Made by a program: the position numbers and the translations under genes | Shown: in pieces, positions 49,646 through 60,876 of the stretch | Layout of the letters: every line of letters begins with the position of its first letter | Numbering within the stretch: position 1 is the stretch's first letter | Notes under the pieces: generated by a model | The model's database searches: none | What the model was told of the DNA's origin: nothing | The model's input: only the letters and a program-made list of their open reading frames with translations | Assembly (NCBI RefSeq): GCF_000382885.1 | Contig: NZ_CAVK010000039.1 | Location: 1-64,000 of the forward strand | From: Sphingobium indicum BiD32 | GTDB lineage: Bacteria > Pseudomonadota > Alphaproteobacteria > Sphingomonadales > Sphingomonadaceae | Reading direction: 5' to 3' | DNA: 64,000 bases

Positions 49646-50902
49646 TCAGCGCTGGTAGCGTGCCAACGCCAGATCGGCGGTTTCGATGGCGGGGGCATGG
49701 CCGCCGATCAGGTCGGCGATCACCTGCCCCGATCCGCAGGCCATGGTCCAGCCCAGCGTGCCATGGCCCGTATTGAGGAACAGATTGTCGATCGGCGTCG
49801 CGCCGACGACCGGGGTGGAATCCGGCGTCATCGGCCGCAGCCCGCTCCAGAAAGTGGCTTTGGTCAGATCCCCTGCGCCGGGAAACAGCGTGCCGACACT
49901 ATGGTCGAGCGTGTCGCGGCGCGCCTGTGGCAGGTCATTGGTGTAGCCCGATAGTTCAGCCATGCCGCCGACCCGGATGCGGTCGCCCAGTCGGGTGATC
50001 GCTACCTTGTAGCTTTCATCGAGCAGGGTCGAGACCGGGGCGGCTTCCGGCTGAACGATAGGGACGGTGATCGAATAGCCCTTCACCGGATAGACGGGCA
50101 GGCGCAGGCCAAGCGGGGCGAGCAGCAAAGGCGAGAAGCTGCCCATGGCGACAAGGTAGGCGTCGCCGGTGACCGGGCCATCGTCGGTGACGACATGGGC
50201 GATGCGTCCGGCTTCGCGCGCCAGTCCGTTGATGGTGCGGCCCATCAGAAACTGGACGCCGCGTGCCTTGGCCATCGCCGCCAGCGCGTTGGTGAATTTG
50301 AAACAGTCGCCCGTCTCGTCATTGGGGAGGCGCAGACCACCCGCGATCGGCGAAGCGCTGGCAGCCAGGCCCGGTTCGGCGGCGATGCATCCGGCGCGGT
50401 CCAGCACCTCGAACGGGACATTGTCAGCGCGCAGCACCTCAATATCCTTGGCGATGCCGTCGAGTTGCTTCTGTTCGCGGAACAGTTGCAGCGTACCCTG
50501 GCTGCGCTCGTCATAGCTGATGCCGGTGGCGGCGCGGAGCGCAATCAGCTGGTCGCGGCTATATTCGGCCAGCCGCACCATCCGCCCCTTGTTGATGCGA
50601 TAGTCAGTCGCGTTGCAGTTGCCGAGCATGGCGATCATCCAGCGCAGCATCGCCATATCGACATTTGGGCGCAGGATCAGGGGGGCGTGCTGCATGAACA
50701 GCCAGCGAAGTGCCTTGGCCGGGATGCCGGGCGCGGCCCAGGGGGAGGCATAGCCGGGCGAGATTTCCCCGGCATTGGCGAAGCTGGTTTCCTGCGCCAC
50801 GCCGGTCTGGCGGTCGATCAGCACGACTTCATGCCCTGCCTGCGAGAGATACCAGGCGGAGGTGACGCCGATGACCCCGCCGCCCAAGATGACGACCTTC
50901 AT
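49646..50902 (-). CDS. dadA: D-amino acid dehydrogenase
   Basis: A 418-residue FAD-dependent dehydrogenase that oxidises D-alanine and other D-amino acids to 2-oxo acids and passes electrons to the respiratory chain. The FAD-binding start [17 protein letters not shown], then [20 protein letters not shown], and the late [14 protein letters not shown] and [16 protein letters not shown] are DadA signatures. Length matches the family. Its start overlaps the alanine racemase stop by four bases (ATGA), giving the classic dadX-dadA pair, here in the order racemase first. Confidence 0.94.
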
Positions 50903-52026
50903 GCCATGATGCTCCTGTCGGGGGTGGCGACCGGCGCGGGCAGATAGGTGCGCGCATAACGGTGGCCGAGCCGGGTCAATATTTCGTAGCTGATCGTGCC
51001 GGCCTGCGCCGCGACATCGTCAATCGTCTGGTGCGGGCCGATCAGTTCGACCGGGGCACCGGCACGGAGCACAGCATCAGGCACGTCGGTGACATCGAGC
51101 GCCATACTGTCCATCGATACCCGCCCGACGATCGGCACGCGCACCCCGGCAATATAGGCGCTGCCCCGGTTGCTCAGGTGGCGCGGCCAGCCATCGGCAT
51201 AGCCAACCGACACGGTCGCGACGCGCGAAGGGCGATCGAAACGGTGAGTCAGGCCATATCCGACCCCTGCCCCAGCATCGACGGTGCGCAACTGGACGAT
51301 AGTGGCATCGAGCGCGACGACGGGCTGCATCGGGTTGGGCTGGCCATGCGGTGCGCCACCATAGAGGGCGATTCCGGCGCGGACGATATCGCCATGCCCC
51401 ACGCCTGCCGTCATCGCGCCGCCCGAATTGTCAATCGAGCGCGGGACGCCGGGAAACTGGTGGGCGATGGCGTTGAACGTGGTGCGCTGTTGCACGTTGA
51501 ACCCGTCATCGGGATCATCGGCGCAGGCGAGGTGGGTCATGACCAGCAGCAGGTCGATACCAGCCAGCCGCTCCGGCGACACGCGCAGGGTTGCAAGGTC
51601 ATCCGCGGTCAGGCCGAGACGGGCCATGCCGCTGTCGACCTGGATCACGCCGGGCAGGGCGCGGTGCAGTGTGCGGGCAAGCGCGGCCCAGCCGTCGATC
51701 TGCTCCAGCGAATTGAGGATCGGGACCGCGCCGATCGCGGCACAATCGGCTTCCGTGCCGGGATAGAGACCGTTGAGGACGTACAGGGTCGCATCGGACG
51801 GCAGATGCGGTTGCAAGGTTGCCGCTTCGCACAGATGGGCGACGAAGAAGTGGCGGCAGCCTGCGGCATATAGAGATGTCGATACCGGGACGGCACCCAG
51901 GCCATAGGCGTCAGCCTTGACCACGCCAGCCACGCTGGCGGGCGCGACCTGCTGGGCGATCAGTCGATAATTGGCCACCAGCGCGCCAAGGTCGATGCGC
52001 AAGCGTCCCGCCGTCCCATGCTGCAT
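50899..52026 (-). CDS. dadX: Alanine racemase, catabolic
   Basis: A 375-residue fold-type III PLP enzyme. Lys37 in [11 protein letters not shown] forms the Schiff base, and the second-domain GYGLTHRF and [17 protein letters not shown] are family motifs. ATG 52026 is chosen because AAGGG lies about seven bases upstream; ATG 52032 is possible. It converts L- to D-alanine for DadA. The coupling with dadA and the divergent Lrp gene indicate the catabolic enzyme rather than the cell-wall Alr, though a single racemase may do both jobs. Confidence 0.92.
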
Positions 52027-52117
52027 GGCCATTCCCTTCCCGATGCCCCAGCATGATAAAACACGTTTGTGCGAATATCCATGCAATCAGCAGATGATCA
52101 TTCGATATTTTCCGCTT

Positions 52118-52128
52118 ATATGGCATAT
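52118..52128. promoter_or_regulatory. Small palindrome in the dadX-lrp divergent region
   Basis: ATATGGCATAT, perfect 11-base palindrome in the AT-rich 123-base gap between dadX and the Lrp gene. Lrp proteins bind degenerate sites there, so this is a weak candidate. Confidence 0.3.
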
Positions 52129-52149
52129 CGTTTCAGTGGATTTGAACAT

Positions 52150-52614
52150 ATGGCCATGTCCTTCGACAATATGGATCGCGCGATTCTGCGCCTGCTCAAG
52201 CTGAACGCGCGGCGATCCAATGCCGAGATCGCGGCGGAGGTCGGCCTGTCGCCGTCTGCCTGCCACCGGCGTATCCGCCAACTGGAAGCGGGGGGTTATA
52301 TTCGTGGCTATACGGTGGTCGCAGGGGGACGGGACGATAATAGCCTGGTCAATGTGCTGGTCCAGGTGACGCTGGATCGGCAGACCGAGGACCATCTCGC
52401 CCGCTTTGAACATGCGGTGCGGCAATGCCCGGAAATCCGCGAATGTTTCCTGATGACCGGCGCGGTCGATTATTGGCTGCGGGTGGAGGCGGACAGCGTC
52501 GACGCCTATGAACGCATCCATAGCGAAATATTGTCGCGTATGCCCGGCGTCACCCGGATCAATTCCAGCATCGCCATGCGCGACGCGCTGCGCCCGCGCC
52601 GTAACAAGGGATGA
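52150..52614 (+). CDS. Lrp/AsnC family regulator
   Basis: A 154-residue regulator: N-terminal helix-turn-helix NAEIAAEVGLSPSACHRRIRQLE (in short form) and C-terminal RAM domain with VNVLVQVTL and FLMTGAVDYWLRVE. It begins at ATG 52150 or 52156; a longer frame to 52069 extends into the promoter region. Divergent from dadX-dadA-ridA, it is the likely alanine- or leucine-responsive activator of that operon, as in other proteobacteria. Confidence 0.9.
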   Translation: MAMSFDNMDRAILRLLKLNARRSNAEIAAEVGLSPSACHRRIRQLEAGGYIRGYTVVAGGRDDNSLVNVLVQVTLDRQTEDHLARFEHAVRQCPEIRECFLMTGAVDYWLRVEADSVDAYERIHSEILSRMPGVTRINSSIAMRDALRPRRNKG

Positions 52615-52710: not shown

Positions 52711-53382
52711 CTAGCGAAAGCCGATTGCCCAGACGCAGGCGGCGGCGATGAGCAGGCCGACAAGCGCTTTCCAGGCTGACCCGGAGGGAAGATCCTTTGT
52801 CTCCTCAACCGGCATGGTGCCGCGGCCATGGATCATCGGGCCGATCAGATTGTGGCGCAGGCGCAGCAGATAATAGAGGATCGCAACGATGTGAAGCGCG
52901 ACCAGCGCGAGGAGCAAGTTGAACAACAGGCCATGCAGATCAGCGGCGACGCGCCCCTGATCAAAGCTGACATAGTTTGCGAGAGGACCCGATTCCAGAC
53001 CGTCCACATCCACGGCAAACAGGCCTGCCGTCACCATCGCCACCAGGCTGACGAGCATCAGCAATACGCTCCAGCCGCCGACCGGATTATGACCTGCCGT
53101 GGCGCGATAAGAGCGTGTCCTGAGATGGCCCAAATAGGCGAAGGCAGCGCGCGGGCTGCGCACGAAATGGCCGAAACGCGCCGTCCCACTGCCCACAAAG
53201 CCCCAATAGAGGCGAAAGATCAGCAGGAAGAGAATAGCGTAGCCCGACAGGCGGTGCCATTCCATCTCATGCCGTTCGCCGCTCCACCAGGAAAAGCCCA
53301 GCAGGGCGACGAGCAGCCAGTGAAATAGCCGGATATAGATATCCCAGACAAGCAGGCGGCGGGATGGGGCGTCGGTCGACAT
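52711..53382 (-). CDS. Cytochrome b561 family protein
   Basis: A 223-residue membrane protein with four to five helices and heme-ligand histidines in IRLFHWLLVALLG, HRLSGYAILF, DLHGLLFN and LVALHIVAILYY (short forms). It matches the prokaryotic cytochrome b/b561 family, which moves electrons between quinone and periplasmic cytochromes. It starts 12 bases after the cytochrome c-prime stop and ends the redox operon, so it is probably the membrane anchor that connects the periplasmic heme proteins to the quinone pool. Confidence 0.9.
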   Translation of the reverse strand: MSTDAPSRRLLVWDIYIRLFHWLLVALLGFSWWSGERHEMEWHRLSGYAILFLLIFRLYWGFVGSGTARFGHFVRSPRAAFAYLGHLRTRSYRATAGHNPVGGWSVLLMLVSLVAMVTAGLFAVDVDGLESGPLANYVSFDQGRVAADLHGLLFNLLLALVALHIVAILYYLLRLRHNLIGPMIHGRGTMPVEETKDLPSGSAWKALVGLLIAAACVWAIGFR

Positions 53383-53393
53383 GGCGGGATCGT

Positions 53394-53891
53394 TCAGCTG
53401 TCGGCGCGGAACTGGCGATGGCAGGCGGCGCAGGTGGCCCCGGTCGCCTTGGCCTGCGCGCGGATGGCATCGGCAGTGCCGCTGTTGGCGGTGGATACCA
53501 GCTTGCCGGATTCGGCGATCAGTTTCGCCATCTGTCCGTCAAAGGTCGCGCGATCGGTCCAGATATTGGGGAGCGCGTCGGTGGGTGCGCCCGCCGTCGG
53601 GCCGCTGCCCGCCGGGAAGAGCCGGGGTTGTTCGCGCGCAGTGGCGGCGATCATCTGCGCTGCCGCGACCATCGTGGCTTTCACCGGGGTGCCGCTTTTG
53701 AGCTGGTCGTTCAGCGCCTTCATCGCCGCGCCCATTTTCTTGTAGCCCGCCTGGCGCGCGGCTATCGCAGCTTTGGGCGCGGGCGCTGCGGCGGGGGCAG
53801 CGGTCAATGATCCCGCCAGCACGGGCAGCGCGACGAGAGAAATACCCGACAGCGCGAGCATCGGGCGGCGGAAAGCTGGCGATATGGTCAT
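53394..53891 (-). CDS. Cytochrome c-prime family protein
   Basis: A 165-residue exported class II cytochrome c. The leader contains ALSGISLVALPVLAGSL and an Ala/Pro-rich stretch. The mature protein is a four-helix bundle with RQAGYKKMGAAMKALND near the start and the heme motif CAACH close to the C terminus, as in cytochrome c-prime and c556. ATG 53891 is chosen at the leader; a longer frame to 53924 overlaps the ankyrin gene stop. It is set between the ankyrin lipoprotein and the cytochrome b561, making it the likely soluble electron carrier of the operon. Confidence 0.88.
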   Translation of the reverse strand: MTISPAFRRPMLALSGISLVALPVLAGSLTAAPAAAPAPKAAIAARQAGYKKMGAAMKALNDQLKSGTPVKATMVAAAQMIAATAREQPRLFPAGSGPTAGAPTDALPNIWTDRATFDGQMAKLIAESGKLVSTANSGTADAIRAQAKATGATCAACHRQFRADS

Positions 53892-53920
53892 GCGATGATC
53901 TACCCTGCGTGTTTTGCTGT

Positions 53921-55288
53921 TCAATGTTCAGGAACGGTCTGCGGCGCGGCGCCCGCCATCTTCACCGACGTCTTGTCGGGAAAGACCGTGCGAAAAATCT
54001 GTTTCACTTGCGTGAGGCCGCCGTCGGCCATCTGGGCGGCGGTCGCGCCATATTTGCTGGGGATGTCGGTGCGCGCGCCATGGGCTGCGAGGATTTTCAG
54101 CATCGCTTCCAGCTCCGGCTGGACACCGCCAGCCACCAGCCAGTGAAGCGCGGTCATGCCATTTGCCCCAGCGACATTCACGTCGGGTGCCAGCGACAGG
54201 GCATAGTCGAGCGTCGCTGTGCTGCCCCCGCGCGCGGACGCCAGCACGACGTTGGTGCCGTCCGCCGTGACGAAGCGGGGGTCGGCCCCGGCGGCCAGCA
54301 ACAATGCCATCGCATCCTTGCGGCCATTGGCGGCGGCGATCAGCAGCGGCGGCGTGGGGGGCACGGGCGGCGGGGGAACGCCGAAATTGGCTTCGGTCAC
54401 CCATGTGATCCGCGATGGACCGGTCAGGCCGTTGGGATCAGCGCCCTTGGCCAGCAGCAGGCGGATGAGATTGATGTCTCCGCCCGCTGCGGCACCATGG
54501 AGCAATTGCTCCCCGGTCCTGTCCCGCTCGACCACGTCCACGCCATACGGCACCAACAGAGCGGCGGCCGCGTAATTTTTCTGATAGAGCGCAAGCTGAG
54601 CGGCGCTGGTGTTTTCCGGGCCGCGATAGGCGCTGTCCGCGCCTGCGGCGAGCAGTGCCTGCGTGGCCGAGACAATGCCGCTCTTGATCGCGAAGAAGAG
54701 AGGCGTGAAGTCGCCCTTCGACACGCGGTTGGGATTTGCGCCAGCCTTTAGCAACAAGGCAATCGCTTCGGTCCGTCCGGCGGCGGCGGCCCACATCAGC
54801 GGCGTCTGGCCGCGACTGTCGATTCGGTCTGGGGCCGCGCCCATGGCCAGCATCCGTGCGACGGCGTCGGCGGGACCATAGCGGGCGCAGACGGCGAGCG
54901 GGGTCGTGCCGTCCGCCCGCGCCACGCGGACATCGGCGCGCGCGTCGAGCAATTGCGCGACGATTGCTGGCTCCCCCAGTTCGCAGGCGAGCGCCAGCGG
55001 CGTCACGCCGTCCTGATCGGCGCTGTTGACGCTCGCGCGCGCCGTCAGCAGCGCGGCGACAATGGCCGGATTCTGGACGTTCACTGCCCAACTGAGCGGC
55101 GTCGCGCCGAAGGCTAGCCTTTGGTCTGGATCGGCCGGCTCGGCCAGCGCTGCCTCAACCCCCGCCACGTCATTCGCGACGATCGCCCGCGCCAGCCCTT
55201 CGTCCTTCTGCGGCGCACGCGCCTGCGCCATGCCGCAACCGGCCAGCAGCGCCAGCAGGGCAAGGAAGGGGCGGGCGCGATCAGGCAC
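53921..55288 (-). CDS. Ankyrin-repeat lipoprotein
   Basis: A 455-residue protein with a lipoprotein signal (LLALLAGC, lipobox cysteine about residue 18) and some ten ankyrin repeats filling the rest: for example GVTPLALACELGEPAIVAQLL, GQTPLMWAAAAGRTEAIALL and GMTALHWLVAGG (given in short form). A proline-rich insert PPPPVPPTPP interrupts the array near residue 315. It is probably anchored to a membrane facing the periplasm and binds partner proteins. The GTG start overlaps the DUF1552 stop by eight bases (GTGCCTGA), so it is coupled to that gene. Ankyrin proteins next to cytochromes often serve as assembly or protection factors; no function is proven. Confidence 0.88.
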   Translation of the reverse strand: MPDRARPFLALLALLAGCGMAQARAPQKDEGLARAIVANDVAGVEAALAEPADPDQRLAFGATPLSWAVNVQNPAIVAALLTARASVNSADQDGVTPLALACELGEPAIVAQLLDARADVRVARADGTTPLAVCARYGPADAVARMLAMGAAPDRIDSRGQTPLMWAAAAGRTEAIALLLKAGANPNRVSKGDFTPLFFAIKSGIVSATQALLAAGADSAYRGPENTSAAQLALYQKNYAAAALLVPYGVDVVERDRTGEQLLHGAAAGGDINLIRLLLAKGADPNGLTGPSRITWVTEANFGVPPPPVPPTPPLLIAAANGRKDAMALLLAAGADPRFVTADGTNVVLASARGGSTATLDYALSLAPDVNVAGANGMTALHWLVAGGVQPELEAMLKILAAHGARTDIPSKYGATAAQMADGGLTQVKQIFRTVFPDKTSVKMAGAAPQTVPEH

Positions 55289-56621
55289 TGGTCAGCGCCG
55301 TGAACGGGCCGTCACTGTCGCCGAAGCGGGTCGCTGGCACATCAAGCACATGCAGCGCGCTCAGCAGCAGATTGGACATGGTCGTGCCCTTTGGCGCGAC
55401 GATATGCCGGTCGCCCGGCACCAGCCCGCCTGCGACGATGACGGGCAGGTCCATATGATCATGCTCATTGGGATCGCCAAAGGCCGATCCGCGCAGCACG
55501 AGGGTCCGGTCCAGCAGCGATCCTTCGCCGTCCTTTACCGCCTTCATCCGGTCCAGATAATAAGCGAAATATTCCATATGATGCCGGTTGATGCGCGCCA
55601 GCTTCGCCATTTTTTCCGGGTTGTTGCCATGATGGCTGAGCATATGATGCGAATCCGGCACGCCGATTTCGGGATAGGTGCGGTTGCTGAGTTCGCGGCC
55701 GATCATGAAGCTGCCGATACGGGTGATGTCGGCCTGCATCGCCAACACCTGAAGGTCGATCATCAGACGGACATGCGCGTCGAAACTGTCGGGGATGCCC
55801 GCAGGCCGTTCCAGACCGGCGCTTTGGGCGCCGCCGCCCGACGCGATCGCGCGCTGGATACGACGTTCGATGTCGCGGGTCGCTTCCAGATATTCGTCGA
55901 GCTTGTGGCGGTCCTCCATCCCCAGCACGCCGCTCAGCCGGGCGCTGTCGTCCATCACGAAATCGAGGATACTCGATTGCCGCCGCAACTGGGCCAGGCG
56001 GCTTTTGGCGTCCAGCGCGTCGCCATCGCCGAACAATCGCTCGAACACGTCGCGCGGATTGGCGGTGACGGGCAGTGGCACGGTGGGGTTCCGCCAGCTG
56101 ATGCCGTTGGTGTAGGCACAGCTATAGCCGATGTCGCAACTGCCGAGCAGGCTGGCCTGGTCGATGCCCAGTTCCAGCGAGCTGAGCGGGGTCGCGTCGC
56201 CCAGATGATCGGCATAGGCCTGATCGACCGAAATACCGCAGCGTATGTCGGTCCCCTCGGTCTGACGGACATGGACCCCGGTGATGAAGGCGGGACAGGA
56301 TCGGCCATGCCCGGCGGGACGGTCCCCCATCGCCGCCGCGCTGGGGTGGCCAAGGCCGGTCACGACGCTGATCTGCGCGCGATGCGGCGCCAGAGGCTCC
56401 AGCGTGGGCGGCAGCGTGAAGCCCGGTCCCTGCGTCGCGGGCAGAAACTGGTTCATCATCATGCCGTTGGGGGAATAGAAAATCTGGAGCCGCTTGGGCC
56501 GGGCCGCGACGTCGGCGGCCTTCGCCGATGGCATCATCGCTTCCAGAAATGGCAGCGCCATGGTCGTGCCTGCGCCGCGCAGCAGGGTACGGCGGCTAAG
56601 CGGTTTGCGCAGGATGATCAT
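55281..56621 (-). CDS. DUF1552 family protein with Tat signal
   Basis: A 446-residue exported protein. The twin-arginine signal RRTLLRGAGTTMALPFLEAM begins at residue 10, so it is folded, possibly with a cofactor, before export. DUF1552 features include RLQIFYSPNGMMMNQFLP, SVVTGLGHPSA, SSLELGIDQ and the C-terminal HDHMDLPVIVAGG. The fold is thought to relate to the alkaline phosphatase/sulfatase group (DUF1501), but no enzyme activity is established. ATG 56621 has GAGGGGAG upstream. It follows the DUF1592 protein by 11 bases, the arrangement seen in planctomycetes, myxobacteria and some proteobacteria. Confidence 0.9.
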   Translation of the reverse strand: MIILRKPLSRRTLLRGAGTTMALPFLEAMMPSAKAADVAARPKRLQIFYSPNGMMMNQFLPATQGPGFTLPPTLEPLAPHRAQISVVTGLGHPSAAAMGDRPAGHGRSCPAFITGVHVRQTEGTDIRCGISVDQAYADHLGDATPLSSLELGIDQASLLGSCDIGYSCAYTNGISWRNPTVPLPVTANPRDVFERLFGDGDALDAKSRLAQLRRQSSILDFVMDDSARLSGVLGMEDRHKLDEYLEATRDIERRIQRAIASGGGAQSAGLERPAGIPDSFDAHVRLMIDLQVLAMQADITRIGSFMIGRELSNRTYPEIGVPDSHHMLSHHGNNPEKMAKLARINRHHMEYFAYYLDRMKAVKDGEGSLLDRTLVLRGSAFGDPNEHDHMDLPVIVAGGLVPGDRHIVAPKGTTMSNLLLSALHVLDVPATRFGDSDGPFTALTSA

Positions 56622-56631
56622 CTTGCTCCCC

Positions 56632-59064
56632 TCATTGACCGGTTGTCCTTCGCAGGGTGAAGGGCGCGCTATGCACGATCCCCTTGATGACTGTCTGGAT
56701 GCGATAGCCATCGGCGGCGGCGCTGCGGCCGATGGTGCGGATGGCGGGCATGTCGCGCGCATCCACCCCGCGGGCCAGCGCATAGGTCAGCAGCCTTTCG
56801 GTAAAGGCGCTGGCAAACTCGTCCTTCTGCGTCAGCAATATCCGCTTCAGCCCCGAGAGCCCGGCAAATTGGGTGCCATCGGGCATCCGCGCCGACACGT
56901 CGATGGGCTGGCCCGCATCCTTTTGCCGGAAAGCGCCGATCGCGTCGAAATTTTCGAGGCTAAAGCCCAGCGGGTCCATCTTCACATGGCAGGCGGCACA
57001 GGCCGGGCTTTTGCGATGCAGCTCCAACTGCTCGCGCGCGGTCAGCAGGCGGCCGTCATGCTTGTCCTGCAAGGCGGGCACATCGGGCGGTGGCGGGGGT
57101 GGCGAGGCGGCGAGCAGATTGTCGAGAATCCACTTGCCCCGCTTCACGACGGACGTGTGATTGCCATAGGAGGTGACGGTGAGGATGCTCGCCTGCCCCA
57201 GCAACCCGCCACGATTGGACGCCGGGTCCAGGCTGACCCGGCGCATGGCGGTGCCGGTGACGCCGCCAATGCCATAATGCTCGGCCAGCCGCTGGTTGAG
57301 GAAGGTATAGTCCGCCGCGATGAAATCCAGCAGGCTGCGGTTGGTGCGCAGAACATAGCTGAAGAACATTTCCGTCTCACGCGCCATGGCGCTGCGCAAA
57401 CGGGTGTCGAATTTGGGAAAAACGGTGATGTCGGGGCGCTGCTGGTCCAGATTGCGCAGATAGAGCCACTGGCCCGCGAAATTGCTGGTCAGCGCCTGCG
57501 CGCGCGGATCGGCCAGCATCCGCGTGACTTGCGCGTCCATGACACCCGGCTTCTGTAGCTGTCCGGTTTCGGCCAGGTGCAGCAGGGTTTCATCGGGGAT
57601 GCTGCTCCACAGGAAGAAGGACAGGCGCGAGGCAAGTTCAAGGTCGGTCAGGCGACGGACGCCGCCCGCCTTGCTACCCGGCGGATCCCGTTCGACGAGG
57701 AACAGGAAGTGCGGCGACACAAGAATCGCCTCCACCGCCGCCTCCACCCCATGTTCAAAGTCCGACTGGGCGCGCTCGGTCGCATAGACCCGCATCAGCG
57801 GGGTGAGGTCGCTGTCGGTCACCGGACGGCGATAAGCGCGGCGGGCAAGCGACGCGACGATCTGCCGGGCACAGCTTGTTTCGGCGGTGGTGCGCGCGGG
57901 CTTGCACAGGTAGATGCGATCGCGGCTGGGCGTTCTGCCGACGCCCTTGGGTGAAAATGGCCCGGCCACGTCGATCTGGAGGACGTCGCGGGGAAAATTC
58001 TGCTGCGAATAGCGCGGCGACATGCGGTAGGATGGGACGTCGATCGACTTTACGCGCACGCCATCGACCGAAACGTCCATGGGCAACATCACCGGCGGGG
58101 CGGTCGGCACCGGCACCTTGTCGAGATCGTTGCGCAGCGTCTGGACGCTTTCGTCGGGCGCGATCTGGCGGCGGAAGGACAGGCCGATGACATGCGCCCC
58201 GGCTTTCAGCGGCACGCGGACGCTGACCTTGTCCTCCTTCTGCCGGTCGGTTTCATTATTGGTGTTGGCGTTCAGCCAGCCGCTAATCTCGTAGGTCGCA
58301 TCGTAACGGGCATAATAAGTGAACGCCCCGCCGCCGCGCGAACCGAGCGGCAGGTCGTCGCTGGCACGTTCATTATAGGCGGGGCGACCGGCGTTCATGA
58401 CCGATCCATCCTTGGGCACTTCATAGGATGTGACGAATTCCCGCCGGGACGTGAGGCCGGTCGCCATGCGCCCGACCTTTCCCGCGACCGCGATATAACG
58501 GTCCATCAAAGTCGGCGAGACGCTGAGGACATCGGCGATATTGTCGAAGCCATAGCCCGAATTATCCTGCGGCAATTCGCGGCTGACATCGACCTTGAGC
58601 GCCAGCAGGTCGCGAACGGCATTGGCATATTCGACGCGGTTCAGGCGGCGGATGGTGGCGCGGCCGGGATCGGGATGCTGGGCGGCATAGGCATCCAGCC
58701 CGTTTTCCAGCCACTGGACGAAGGCGGCCCTGGCAGCAGGCGTCGGCTGCGGCTTGTTAAGCGGCGGCATTTCGCCCTGACGGGTGCGGCGCAGCACCTT
58801 TTCCCAGATGTCCATATTCGTGCCGTGCAGCAGATCGCCATTGCGCACATCGTCGAGCGAGAGATTGGCGATCTTGTCGCTATCGTTGTGGCAGCGTGCG
58901 CAATAGTCGCCCAGGATCGCTGGTGTAGCGTCGGGCGCAGTGTGGGCGGCAGCGGTGGGCAGTGGCGGCACCTCGTCAGGCCGCGCCAGAACCGACGCTG
59001 CCGCCGCCAGCGCACTGAGCGCCAGGATGCAACTGGGCAAAGTCGGATGCCAGTTCAGGCCCAT
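56632..59064 (-). CDS. DUF1592-family diheme protein (DUF1587/1595/1592/1588/1585)
   Basis: An 810-residue exported protein of the planctomycete-cytochrome domain type. After a signal peptide comes a heme motif CARCH near residue 54 (PSCyt1-like), then DUF1587 with IRRLNRVEYANAVRDLL, DUF1595, DUF1592 with EAILVSPHFLFLVERD, DUF1588 with HTSVVKRGKWILDNLL, a second heme motif CAACH, and DUF1585 with FTERLLTYALARGVD. It therefore binds two c-type hemes in the periplasm. The family has no known reaction. It is the first gene of a five-gene minus-strand operon. Confidence 0.92.
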   Translation of the reverse strand: MGLNWHPTLPSCILALSALAAAASVLARPDEVPPLPTAAAHTAPDATPAILGDYCARCHNDSDKIANLSLDDVRNGDLLHGTNMDIWEKVLRRTRQGEMPPLNKPQPTPAARAAFVQWLENGLDAYAAQHPDPGRATIRRLNRVEYANAVRDLLALKVDVSRELPQDNSGYGFDNIADVLSVSPTLMDRYIAVAGKVGRMATGLTSRREFVTSYEVPKDGSVMNAGRPAYNERASDDLPLGSRGGGAFTYYARYDATYEISGWLNANTNNETDRQKEDKVSVRVPLKAGAHVIGLSFRRQIAPDESVQTLRNDLDKVPVPTAPPVMLPMDVSVDGVRVKSIDVPSYRMSPRYSQQNFPRDVLQIDVAGPFSPKGVGRTPSRDRIYLCKPARTTAETSCARQIVASLARRAYRRPVTDSDLTPLMRVYATERAQSDFEHGVEAAVEAILVSPHFLFLVERDPPGSKAGGVRRLTDLELASRLSFFLWSSIPDETLLHLAETGQLQKPGVMDAQVTRMLADPRAQALTSNFAGQWLYLRNLDQQRPDITVFPKFDTRLRSAMARETEMFFSYVLRTNRSLLDFIAADYTFLNQRLAEHYGIGGVTGTAMRRVSLDPASNRGGLLGQASILTVTSYGNHTSVVKRGKWILDNLLAASPPPPPPDVPALQDKHDGRLLTAREQLELHRKSPACAACHVKMDPLGFSLENFDAIGAFRQKDAGQPIDVSARMPDGTQFAGLSGLKRILLTQKDEFASAFTERLLTYALARGVDARDMPAIRTIGRSAAADGYRIQTVIKGIVHSAPFTLRRTTGQ

Positions 59065-59186: not shown

Positions 59187-59229
59187 GATTCCGCCTTGCG
59201 TCCATTGCCGTTAACGGGACGGCGGAATC
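59187..59229. repeat. Inverted repeat in the intergenic region before the adenosine deaminase gene
   Basis: GATTCCGCC (59187-59195) and GGCGGAATC (59221-59229) are perfect nine-base arms 25 bases apart, with GTTAAC in the loop. It lies in the 297-base gap between two divergent genes and may be an operator or an RNA hairpin. Nothing else recognisable is present in the gap. Confidence 0.35.
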
Positions 59230-59361
59230 GCAAAATTAGGCCACCCCGGTGAGCCGCCCCGTGCGCCAGAGCGCTCTGATTTTCGCAACGGGACGTCCAC
59301 AATATCGTCATTGAACATTGCGGGCGTCGTCGCCAGAAGGACCGCGAAACGGGGGATCTAT

Positions 59362-60876
59362 ATGACGCGGGTGGCTGCACTGTTGGTGGCGCTGATGCTA
59401 AGCGCCGGGCCGGTCATGGCGCGGACGCCCGCCGCCCCTGTGTCCAACGAAGCGCGCACCGCCGCCTATCTGGACCGGATTGCGGGCAGCAGTCCGCGGC
59501 TGCGCATCTTCCTGCAAGCAATGCCCAAAGGCGGCGACCTGCACAATCATGCGGGCGGGGCCAATTTCGCGGAGGATTATCTGCGCTGGGCGGCGGCCGA
59601 TGGCCTGTGCATAACGACCGATACGCATCATATTGTCGATCCGCCCTGCACCGCGCCGGGGCGCGTTTCAGCGGCTGGGCTGGAGAAGGCATATCCTCAT
59701 TATTCGCGCGCGATCGACGCCTTTTCCACGCGCGGGTTCGAGGCGGGCGTGGGTGATCCGACGGTGTCGGGTTATGACCGTTTCTTTGCGACCTTCGATG
59801 CGTTCGGCCCGGCCTATAGCCGCCATGTCGGCGAAGCCATGGCGCTGACCCGGCAGCAGGCGGCGGCGGACCATCTGTCCTATGTTGAACTGGGCAGCGG
59901 CGCGCGCGCGGGCTGGATGCTGGGCATGAAGATGGCCGATGCCGACGCCAGCGATTTGGCCGCGTTATACGCGAAGATTGTGCCACTATTGCCGGACGCC
60001 GTTGCGAGCGCAAAGGTCGACTATGACGGCTATGATGCGCAGGGCGCGGCGATCGACGGGTGCGGGACGGCCAATCCGAAACCCGCCTGCGGCGTGGAAA
60101 TGCGCTATCTCTACACCGCGATCCGCACCAGCCCGCCTGCGCAGGTGTTCGCGCAACTGGCGTTTGGCTTTGCACTGGTCGAGGCCGATCCGCGCTTTGT
60201 CGGCGTCAATATCGCTGCACCGGAGCATGACCCCGTCGCGGTGCGCGATTATGCGCTGCATATGCAGATGATCGCTTTCCTCAAGGCGCGGCATTCCGAG
60301 GTGCAACTGTCGCTTCATGCAGGCGAACTGACGCTGGGCCTGGTTCCATCGCGCGACCTGAACTTTCATATTCGCGATGCGGTGCAGGTTGCCGGCGCGG
60401 GGCGGATCGGCCATGGCATCGACATCGCCTATGAGAGCGATGCACCCGCGCTGCTGGCACGGATGGCGCGCGATCAGGTGGCGGTGGAGATCAACCTGAC
60501 CAGCAATGCCGTCATATTGGGGGTGAAGGGCAGCGATCATCCGCTGTCGCTGTATCGGGAAGCGGGCGTGCCGGTGGTGTTGTCGACCGACGATGAGGGC
60601 GTGTCGCGCAGTGACATGACCAACGAATATCTCCGCGCCGTCACCGAACAGGGGCTGCGCTACGCGGACCTCAAGCAGATCGTGCGCAACGGGTTGCATT
60701 ACAGTTTCCTGCAAGGCGAGAGTCTGTGGCAGGACAAGCCGGGCGGTGCGCGGGTTGCGGCGTGCATCGTAATGGACGCGCCGGGGTGTAGCGCCTGGCT
60801 GGCGGCAAGTCCCAAGGCGGCGGCGCAAGCCAGGCTGGAGCGCGACCTTCAGGCCTTTGAAGCTATGCCGCGCTGA
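59362..60876 (+). CDS. Secreted adenosine deaminase family protein
   Basis: A 504-residue exported metal-dependent deaminase. The signal peptide is VAALLVALMLSAGPVMA. Metal and catalytic residues follow the ADA order: GGDLHNHAGG, then LSLHAGELT, GHGIDIAY and STDDEGVSRSDMTNEY. Length and secretion match the ADA-related growth factor group (ADGF/CECR1 style) rather than the 340-residue cytoplasmic enzyme. It would turn adenosine to inosine outside the cytoplasm. ATG 59362 follows GGGGGA; a longer frame to 59311 has no ribosome site. Its 3' end overlaps the convergent permease gene by 14 bases. Confidence 0.88.
   Translation: MTRVAALLVALMLSAGPVMARTPAAPVSNEARTAAYLDRIAGSSPRLRIFLQAMPKGGDLHNHAGGANFAEDYLRWAAADGLCITTDTHHIVDPPCTAPGRVSAAGLEKAYPHYSRAIDAFSTRGFEAGVGDPTVSGYDRFFATFDAFGPAYSRHVGEAMALTRQQAAADHLSYVELGSGARAGWMLGMKMADADASDLAALYAKIVPLLPDAVASAKVDYDGYDAQGAAIDGCGTANPKPACGVEMRYLYTAIRTSPPAQVFAQLAFGFALVEADPRFVGVNIAAPEHDPVAVRDYALHMQMIAFLKARHSEVQLSLHAGELTLGLVPSRDLNFHIRDAVQVAGAGRIGHGIDIAYESDAPALLARMARDQVAVEINLTSNAVILGVKGSDHPLSLYREAGVPVVLSTDDEGVSRSDMTNEYLRAVTEQGLRYADLKQIVRNGLHYSFLQGESLWQDKPGGARVAACIVMDAPGCSAWLAASPKAAAQARLERDLQAFEAMPR

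Follow-up and report, generated by a model that had tools for sequence, protein, structure and literature searches.

Described relatives of the DUF1592-DUF1552 operon

The PSCyt3/PSD proteins of Planctomycetes and Verrucomicrobia (DUF1587-1595-1592-1588-1585) are encoded by genes that usually adjoin a family of unknown genes, as stated in the accessible portion of a 2017 report (PMC5615132). They have Pfam domains in common with a DUF1592 protein encoded in a stretch of 64,000 nucleotides from Sphingobium indicum BiD32 (contig NZ_CAVK010000039.1, positions 1 to 64,000; this whole stretch is referred to as the window), where a DUF1592-DUF1552 pair opens a five-gene operon on the minus strand (52711-59064). 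Compared with the planctomycete and verrucomicrobial systems, the pair in the window is joined by an ankyrin-repeat protein, a cytochrome c', and a cytochrome b561, and its host is a sphingomonad. The first-pass annotation, made from the sequence alone, considered the system undescribed, which goes too far given the PSCyt3 pairing reported in 2017. The accessible passages of the literature naming DUF1592 or DUF1552 describe no ankyrin, c', or b561 partners, and those on b561/c' operons, AnkB with a catalase, X132, and the alkaline phosphatase superfamily with DUF1501 do not describe the gene set; no reaction was found in the literature for DUF1592/PSCyt3 or DUF1552. What is new is that an ankyrin gene accompanies the pair as a third member in several phyla, that c' is linked exclusively to DUF1552 in Sphingobium, that GSDH/CBM26 fusion proteins are encoded next to DUF1552, and that a histidine occupies the nucleophile spacing.

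Cbp2D from Cellvibrio japonicus combines an X183 cytochrome with a DUF1587-led X132 module and, according to the available sections of three papers (PMC8981238, PMC12542752, and PMC10916295), is required for growth on insoluble cellulose. Like the DUF1592 protein, Cbp2D and its X183-X132 counterparts from Teredinibacter turnerae (TERTU_3803 and TERTU_2913) have a DUF1587-led module that contains a further CxxCH motif and comes after a cytochrome domain; the equivalence of X132 and the DUF1592 module is suggested by the description in the figure legends. The Cbp2D and TERTU proteins are multidomain and secreted, with carbohydrate-binding modules in Cbp2D and TERTU_3803, and the same sections report no DUF1552, c', or b561 partner for them. 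Neither the carbohydrate-binding module of Cbp2D nor its YceI-like X158 has a corresponding Pfam family in the DUF1592 protein of the window, while CBM26 is present in two distant homologs (L214 and L216). A table row in the accessible part of another paper (PMC6004670) lists a CBM2 DUF1592 protein from Cellvibrio.

The five genes of the operon are real, co-oriented, and closely packed. In 5' to 3' order, they encode the DUF1592 protein (56632-59064; 810 residues, predicted to be exported, two CxxCH motifs), the DUF1552 (HXXSHH) protein (55281-56621, ATG at 56621; 446 residues, twin-arginine signal), the ankyrin-repeat protein (53921-55288, GTG start; 455 residues, predicted to be exported), cytochrome c' (53394-53891; 165 residues, predicted to be exported), and cytochrome b561 (52711-53382; 223 residues, predicted membrane protein). 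The DUF1592 protein matches PF07631, PF07627, PF07624, PF07626, and PF07637 (E-values from 1e-47 to 9e-24), and the DUF1552 and ankyrin proteins match PF07586 (2.7e-100) and Ank_2 (7.9e-53), respectively; matches to PF01322 (2.3e-27) and PF01292 (2.6e-20) bear out the soluble cytochrome and the membrane cytochrome b of the annotation. Its spacings between ankyrin and c' (29 bases) and between c' and b561 (11 bases) and its overlap of DUF1552 and ankyrin (8 bases) were recovered, whereas the gap between DUF1592 and DUF1552, given as 12, counts 10 bases. An NCBIfam scan of the five proteins yielded no family above its cut-off, and the sub-threshold matches to Legionella ankyrin effectors reflect ankyrin repeats only.

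With roughly an even chance, the operon constitutes a periplasmic redox module in which electrons pass between b561, cytochrome c', the DUF1592 protein, and the DUF1552 protein. Cytochrome b561 would exchange electrons with the quinone pool, cytochrome c' would carry them between b561 and DUF1592, and DUF1592 would act as a relay through its two c hemes. The DUF1552 protein, which may have a phosphatase-like fold with a histidine-rich site replacing the nucleophile, would use or supply the electrons as the likely catalytic partner, so that the flow would run from quinol through b561, c', and DUF1592 to DUF1552, or in reverse. The ankyrin protein probably holds or assembles the DUF1592/DUF1552 pair. 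In sphingomonads, a generic c'/b561 pair would have been added, plugging the module into the membrane quinone pool. We infer the electron transfer as such, as well as its direction, the metal, the substrate, and what the ankyrin protein does. Because the operon is compact, has identifiable carriers, and occurs in culturable, genetically tractable sphingomonads, the long-open role of the pair can be tested directly.

The conserved core and its putative electron carriers

The widely conserved core is the DUF1592-DUF1552 pair, usually with the ankyrin protein, and it recurs across phyla. PF07586 is present in 34 of 150 relatives, and 20 regions were fetched for synteny comparison. All five genes were located on one strand as the annotation had it, and the order of the proposed unit is kept in 10 of 10 other Sphingobium loci with a window-type DUF1552 (two with DUF1592 cut by a contig end); as the genes on either side vary there, the arrangement exceeds what chance would give. 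Among the named DUF1552 loci, which are the best 80 of 562, all 21 from Sphingomonadales contain DUF1592 and ankyrin genes, and 17 of these also contain c' and b561, with the five-gene order kept; the 54 loci from other phyla include DUF1592 in 51 and ankyrin in 42 cases. Within this set, c' together with b561 stands beside the core only in sphingomonads. In three pairs of loci (L032/L053, L038/L052, and L134/L152), both members stem from one and the same genome. Loci with DUF1592/PSCyt3 and DUF1552 come from Acidobacteriota, Planctomycetes, Verrucomicrobia, Armatimonadota, and Proteobacteria. The families thus co-occur in other genomes, in congeneric and named loci alike; a lack of co-occurrence, which the annotation had named as grounds for rejecting its proposal, was not observed. 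What does not hold of the annotation is the five genes as a complete general system: the core is smaller. PF07586 is rare when the phylum is sampled evenly: of 398 genomes, 8 have it, one being that of the window. Each of the 8 PSCyt3 places above the cut-off has a DUF1552 match at a distance of 425-477 bases; DUF1552 is lacking for three lower-scoring PSCyt3 rows.

Cytochrome c' is strictly linked to DUF1552 in Sphingobium, with membership of the genus taken as genomes G000-G090 from a kinship listing that does not cover every genome. Each of the 35 strong c' genes found in the genus (scores above 50 bits) has a DUF1552 gene no more than 10 kb away (greatest distance 7.8 kb), compared with 0 of 28 for the order's other genera; of 84 c' rows, 67 were used, with 63 above 50 bits counted and 21 weaker ones dropped. 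Conversely, c' lies within 10 kb at 34 of 42 Sphingobium DUF1552 places. Both genes occur in 26 genomes, DUF1552 alone in 4, c' alone in none, and neither in 61 (Fisher p 6.7e-19, inflated by relatedness). The pairing of c' with b561 is generic: 14 of 16 c' loci of other genera also have b561 close by, as in the operon, but DUF1552 is absent within 10 kb of every one of those c' genes. The chain quinone-b561-c'-DUF1592-DUF1552 of the annotation is plausible and gains strength from the strict c'-DUF1552 linkage in the genus. The cytochrome c' carries a CAACH motif near its C-terminus (53418-53432), with CxxCH kept in 48 of 48 homologs, and a phmmer search of PDB retrieves solved cytochromes c' (best E 2.6e-12). 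In b561, four histidines are kept in 48 of 48 homologs and a fifth in 47.

A stronger argument for the linkage than the p-value is the presence of c'/b561 with two deeply separated types of the pair in varied positions. A second, very divergent DUF1592/DUF1552 type (type 2) also carries c'/b561, which may be located directly downstream, upstream with genes between, or about 7 kb away; around type 2, they appear on differing sides and in differing orders, including on an annotated plasmid of Sphingobium herbicidovorans. The two DUF1552 types are separated by branches of 4.3 and 5.7 changes per site. Their c' proteins, in contrast, cluster closely, at an open fork that they share with a single long-branched c' of a different family. 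The contrast of this deep split with the much shorter c' distances suggests that c'/b561 joined two old cores, probably within the Sphingobium lineage; the b561 tree was read in part and gave long-branch warnings. The genome of the window itself has a second divergent DUF1592-DUF1552 locus with c' and b561 (L048, contig C155:45000-54000), which also encodes a 410-residue protein that matches no Pfam family and one that resembles Lipoprotein_15 below the cut-off. In another family of the class, a c' gene lies beside a type-2-like pair (L215).

The neighborhoods of other loci suggest that the electron carriers beside DUF1592/DUF1552 are interchangeable while the pair is constant. Genes for high-potential iron-sulfur proteins (HiPIP), typically high-potential carriers, adjoin two type-2 loci (L050 and L051). 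In four Sphingobium genomes without c' (L042-L045), a VOC-fold protein lies between DUF1592 and DUF1552 (it was read in L042, L043, and L045, with Pfam run on L042 only); after DUF1552, L042 also encodes an ankyrin protein of larger size and a membrane cytochrome of the DUF2231-PSCyt1 type. VOC (glyoxalase-like) proteins with export signals recur beside DUF1592/DUF1552 pairs that have other carriers (L042:7418-8257, L043, L045, and L215:5823-6299). In two alphaproteobacterial metagenome-assembled genomes (MAGs), the triad is followed by predicted exported proteins (L073:12809-13666 and L076:12729-13580), of which the former matches the metallo-beta-lactamase fold and the latter is similar by eye only. 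A genome listed under the same taxonomic order (G135, locus L046) has planctomycete-like genes for PSCyt2, DUF1501, and a DUF1559-like prepilin next to its DUF1592-DUF1552 pair, and the bin is likely to be contaminated.

The core proteins and the proposed direction of electron flow

The DUF1592 protein consists of an N-terminal cytochrome-like domain and the domains PSD3-PSD5-PSD4-PSCyt3-PSD2, all of the latter above their Pfam cut-offs, with an inserted β-sandwich at residues ~206-370. The N-terminal heme domain scores 20.8 bits against PSCyt1, just below the 22-bit cut-off, and matches CcoP in PDB (E 0.002). It contains the first heme motif, CARCH (residues 55-59, 58888..58902, minus strand; 73 of 75 homologs, the other two gapped); the second, CAACH (residues 689-693, 56986..57000, minus strand), is located within the PSCyt3 domain and conserved in 75 of 75, in agreement with the two heme motifs of the annotated diheme protein. 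Met99 (74 of 75) and His683 (75 of 75) are similarly conserved, and DUF1587 (PF07626) occupies residues 139-202, with the CxxCH module after it. A sequence search of PDB gave no solved relative (best E 0.029). In the fold search with the AlphaFold2 model (mean predicted local distance difference test, pLDDT, 87.1), only weak lectin-like matches to the β-sandwich appeared (best Z 5.0), and the helical part was barely tested; the matches hint at a carbohydrate-binding role of the predicted insert.

In two genomes of the phylum sample (L214 and L216), the DUF1592 module ends proteins of 2157 or 2369 residues that also contain CBM26 starch-binding, GSDH sugar-dehydrogenase, and cytochrome c domains and are encoded directly beside DUF1552. 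Two further long DUF1592 homologs have Ig or PKD domains, one of them with a sub-threshold GSDH match. These fusions bear on the direction of flow: as the DUF1592 heme module of distant homologs is fused to GSDH, an electron source, and as the fusion proteins probably reside extracellularly, with no respiratory chain at hand, we lean towards electrons being delivered to DUF1552 rather than drawn from it. The opposite course, in which a periplasmic substrate is oxidized and DUF1552/DUF1592 pass electrons through c' and b561 to quinone, as in a dehydrogenase feeding respiration, is improbable. It would suit the HiPIP genes beside the two type-2 loci and one type-2 locus near Rieske, flavin monooxygenase, and VOC genes and a TonB receptor; however, the GSDH fusion already supplies a dehydrogenase, the DUF1592/DUF1552 end looks like the acceptor there, and c'/b561 are dispensable in other clades.

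The DUF1552 protein had been regarded as Tat-exported and of no known activity. Its twin-arginine pair is invariant (77 of 77), in agreement with the former, and its fold is recognizable in a predicted structure. The AlphaFold2 model (mean pLDDT 82.7) is predicted to adopt the alkaline-phosphatase-superfamily fold of nucleotide pyrophosphatases (NPP) and sulfatases: the comparison with ENPP7 gave a VIA Z of 17.4 (root-mean-square deviation 3.4, 245 residues), and 473 of 914 compared chains reached a Z of at least 8, with a best Foldseek E-value of 4.3e-5 at a TM of ~0.4. A sequence search of PDB gave no solved relative (only E 0.29). Profile comparisons returned nothing useful for NPP proteins (0.3% probability) and, for sulfatases, a weak local match at the C-terminal strand (4%, p 0.01); their seeds were the longest open reading frames over the match, wrong-frame rows included, and were re-selected for the motif count only.

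In the NPP and sulfatase proteins fetched for comparison, the nucleophile is Thr or Cys: ten residues before the TG turn, Thr was found at 16 of 18 NPP loci and Cys at 15 of 18 sulfatase loci, the other 5 loci having no match to a motif that permits only Ser, Thr, or Cys. At that spacing, DUF1552 has His105 (codon 56307..56309, minus strand), which precedes the TG-like turn by ten residues and is histidine in 77 of 77 homologs, with no Ser, Thr, or Cys found; the turn itself keeps Thr or Ser in 75 and Gly in 62 of 77. The putative assignment is based on the spacing, the fold, and the start of a helix at residue 105 in the model. Further conserved histidines are both members of the HxxxH motif (His326 and His330, HXXSHH motif, 55632..55646, minus strand; 77 of 77), His387 (77 of 77), and His406 (75 of 77). 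The equivalent of the first-strand metal Asp, judged from the sequence pattern, is Asn, Met, His, Leu, or Ile. DUF1501 shares the histidine at the nucleophile spacing (31 of 31 rows, wrong-frame rows replaced) and matches the DUF1552 profile weakly (29% probability, E 5.8e-4, with 7 wrong-frame rows in the DUF1501 alignment); it keeps the D-x-H and D-H motifs in 31 of 31, whereas DUF1552 is without the D-H motifs. Its partner is a different cytochrome family, and in L046 it lies beside a PSCyt2 protein. DUF1501 was detected in 71 genomes when 299 of the phylum were sampled, and the genome of the window also has a DUF1501 gene (G000:C11:5153-6208, L235).

The same fold match, the D-x-H and D-H motifs of the related DUF1501, and the frequent location of sulfatase genes near PSCyt genes (accessible portion of PMC5615132) would be expected if DUF1552 were a metal-dependent hydrolase of the alkaline phosphatase superfamily, acting through His105 as the nucleophile or through metal-bound water, with the cytochromes separate or regulatory. 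Plain hydrolysis is disfavored because the nucleophile is missing; the first-strand Asp is replaced as well, and the constant pairing with a two-heme protein is left unexplained, so that we judge this unlikely. A tentative, rather doubtful proposal is that DUF1552, and probably DUF1501, may form a class of oxygenase- or oxidase-like, metal-dependent oxidoreductases with the fold of alkaline phosphatase: the nucleophile would have given way to one histidine in a His-rich metal site, and DUF1592, as its own two-heme partner, would exchange electrons with the enzyme. The donor would be interchangeable, i.e., b561/c' in sphingomonads, a fused sugar dehydrogenase with a cytochrome in the starch-binding relatives, and a DUF2231 membrane cytochrome or HiPIP elsewhere. 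By analogy with systems of the lytic polysaccharide monooxygenase type, the substrate might be a sugar, a polysaccharide, or an envelope glycan. Should DUF1552 prove redox-active, a hydrolase fold that is among the best studied would have been put to a new use, which could be relevant to the way in which proteins of the Cbp2D kind aid cellulose breakdown.

The ankyrin protein is the third part of the core and probably a scaffold or assembly factor. It has a lipobox (LAGC) in the window, but the annotation as a lipoprotein scaffold is weakened by the presence of a lipobox in only 4 of 41 relatives (two of the four rows being one genome) by a crude extraction of N-termini that overlooked one MAGC variant and, in three or more rows, the signal peptide; close relatives without a lipobox share an AQA-R site resembling that of signal peptidase I. 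Cytochromes c' are known gas binders, and periplasmic AnkB supports a catalase in Pseudomonas; both would suit an envelope protection system directed against peroxides, lipid peroxyl radicals, or nitric oxide, in which b561/c' would hold a detoxifying partner in its reduced state, with the ankyrin protein acting like AnkB. A further parallel is the LcoA b561, which works with the lipocalin BcnA against lipid peroxyl radicals (accessible text of PMC9113575) and is likewise linked to a periplasmic partner. Yet the Pfam scan of the five operon proteins and five neighbors detected neither a catalase or peroxidase family, although an AnkB-type helper would be expected next to a catalase gene, nor a YceI/lipocalin family such as that of LcoA-BcnA. 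No peroxidase-like fold match was obtained for DUF1592, in a search that was weak for the helical part. The peroxide-related function that the annotation allowed for is not supported, and protection appears quite unlikely.

Several observations count against a redox module of b561, c', DUF1592, and DUF1552. All five loci from other alphaproteobacterial MAGs have the DUF1592-DUF1552-ankyrin triad with c'/b561 absent; c'/b561 are found beside DUF1552 at 0 of the 54 loci from other phyla (at the thresholds used, several contigs being short) and are lacking at four of the Sphingomonadales loci, i.e., L061, L068, and L072 from Novosphingobium and one cut by a contig end. Within 10 kb, c' is also absent from 8 of 42 Sphingobium DUF1552 places. 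The lack of c'/b561 at so many loci implies that the core functions without them or with other donors. HiPIP could equally signal electrons leaving the module, the putative histidine site is placed by sequence spacing and a predicted fold, and the mirror-tree distance correlations (0.76-0.97) are without a housekeeping control.

Upstream region and flanking genes

The stretch upstream of the operon extends from 59065 to ~59361, beyond which lies the divergent gene of a predicted exported adenosine deaminase. In an alignment of upstream sequences, a block at 59198..59240 (minus strand, ~135 bases before the DUF1592 start) is near-invariant among eight relatives while its surroundings vary. It has one exact match in the window versus 0 expected, and its 19-base core is exact at 7 of 212 loci, two of which are one genome. 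The invariance of the block fits a single promoter region, making it a candidate promoter or operator of the whole operon; no FNR or other known operator was recognized in it by eye, with no motif-library scan made.

The flanking genes vary among relatives: dadA/alr/asnC lie beside only 4 of 10 window-type Sphingobium loci, and a purine permease switches sides. In the window, these correspond to a D-amino-acid-dehydrogenase-like protein and an alanine racemase with a divergent Lrp/AsnC regulator (49646-52614), which adjoin the operon in 4 of 10 relatives. On the other side, the adenosine deaminase family protein (59362-60876), with an apparent signal peptide and divergent from the operon, adjoins a permease of the xanthine/uracil type, a gene order kept in many relatives.

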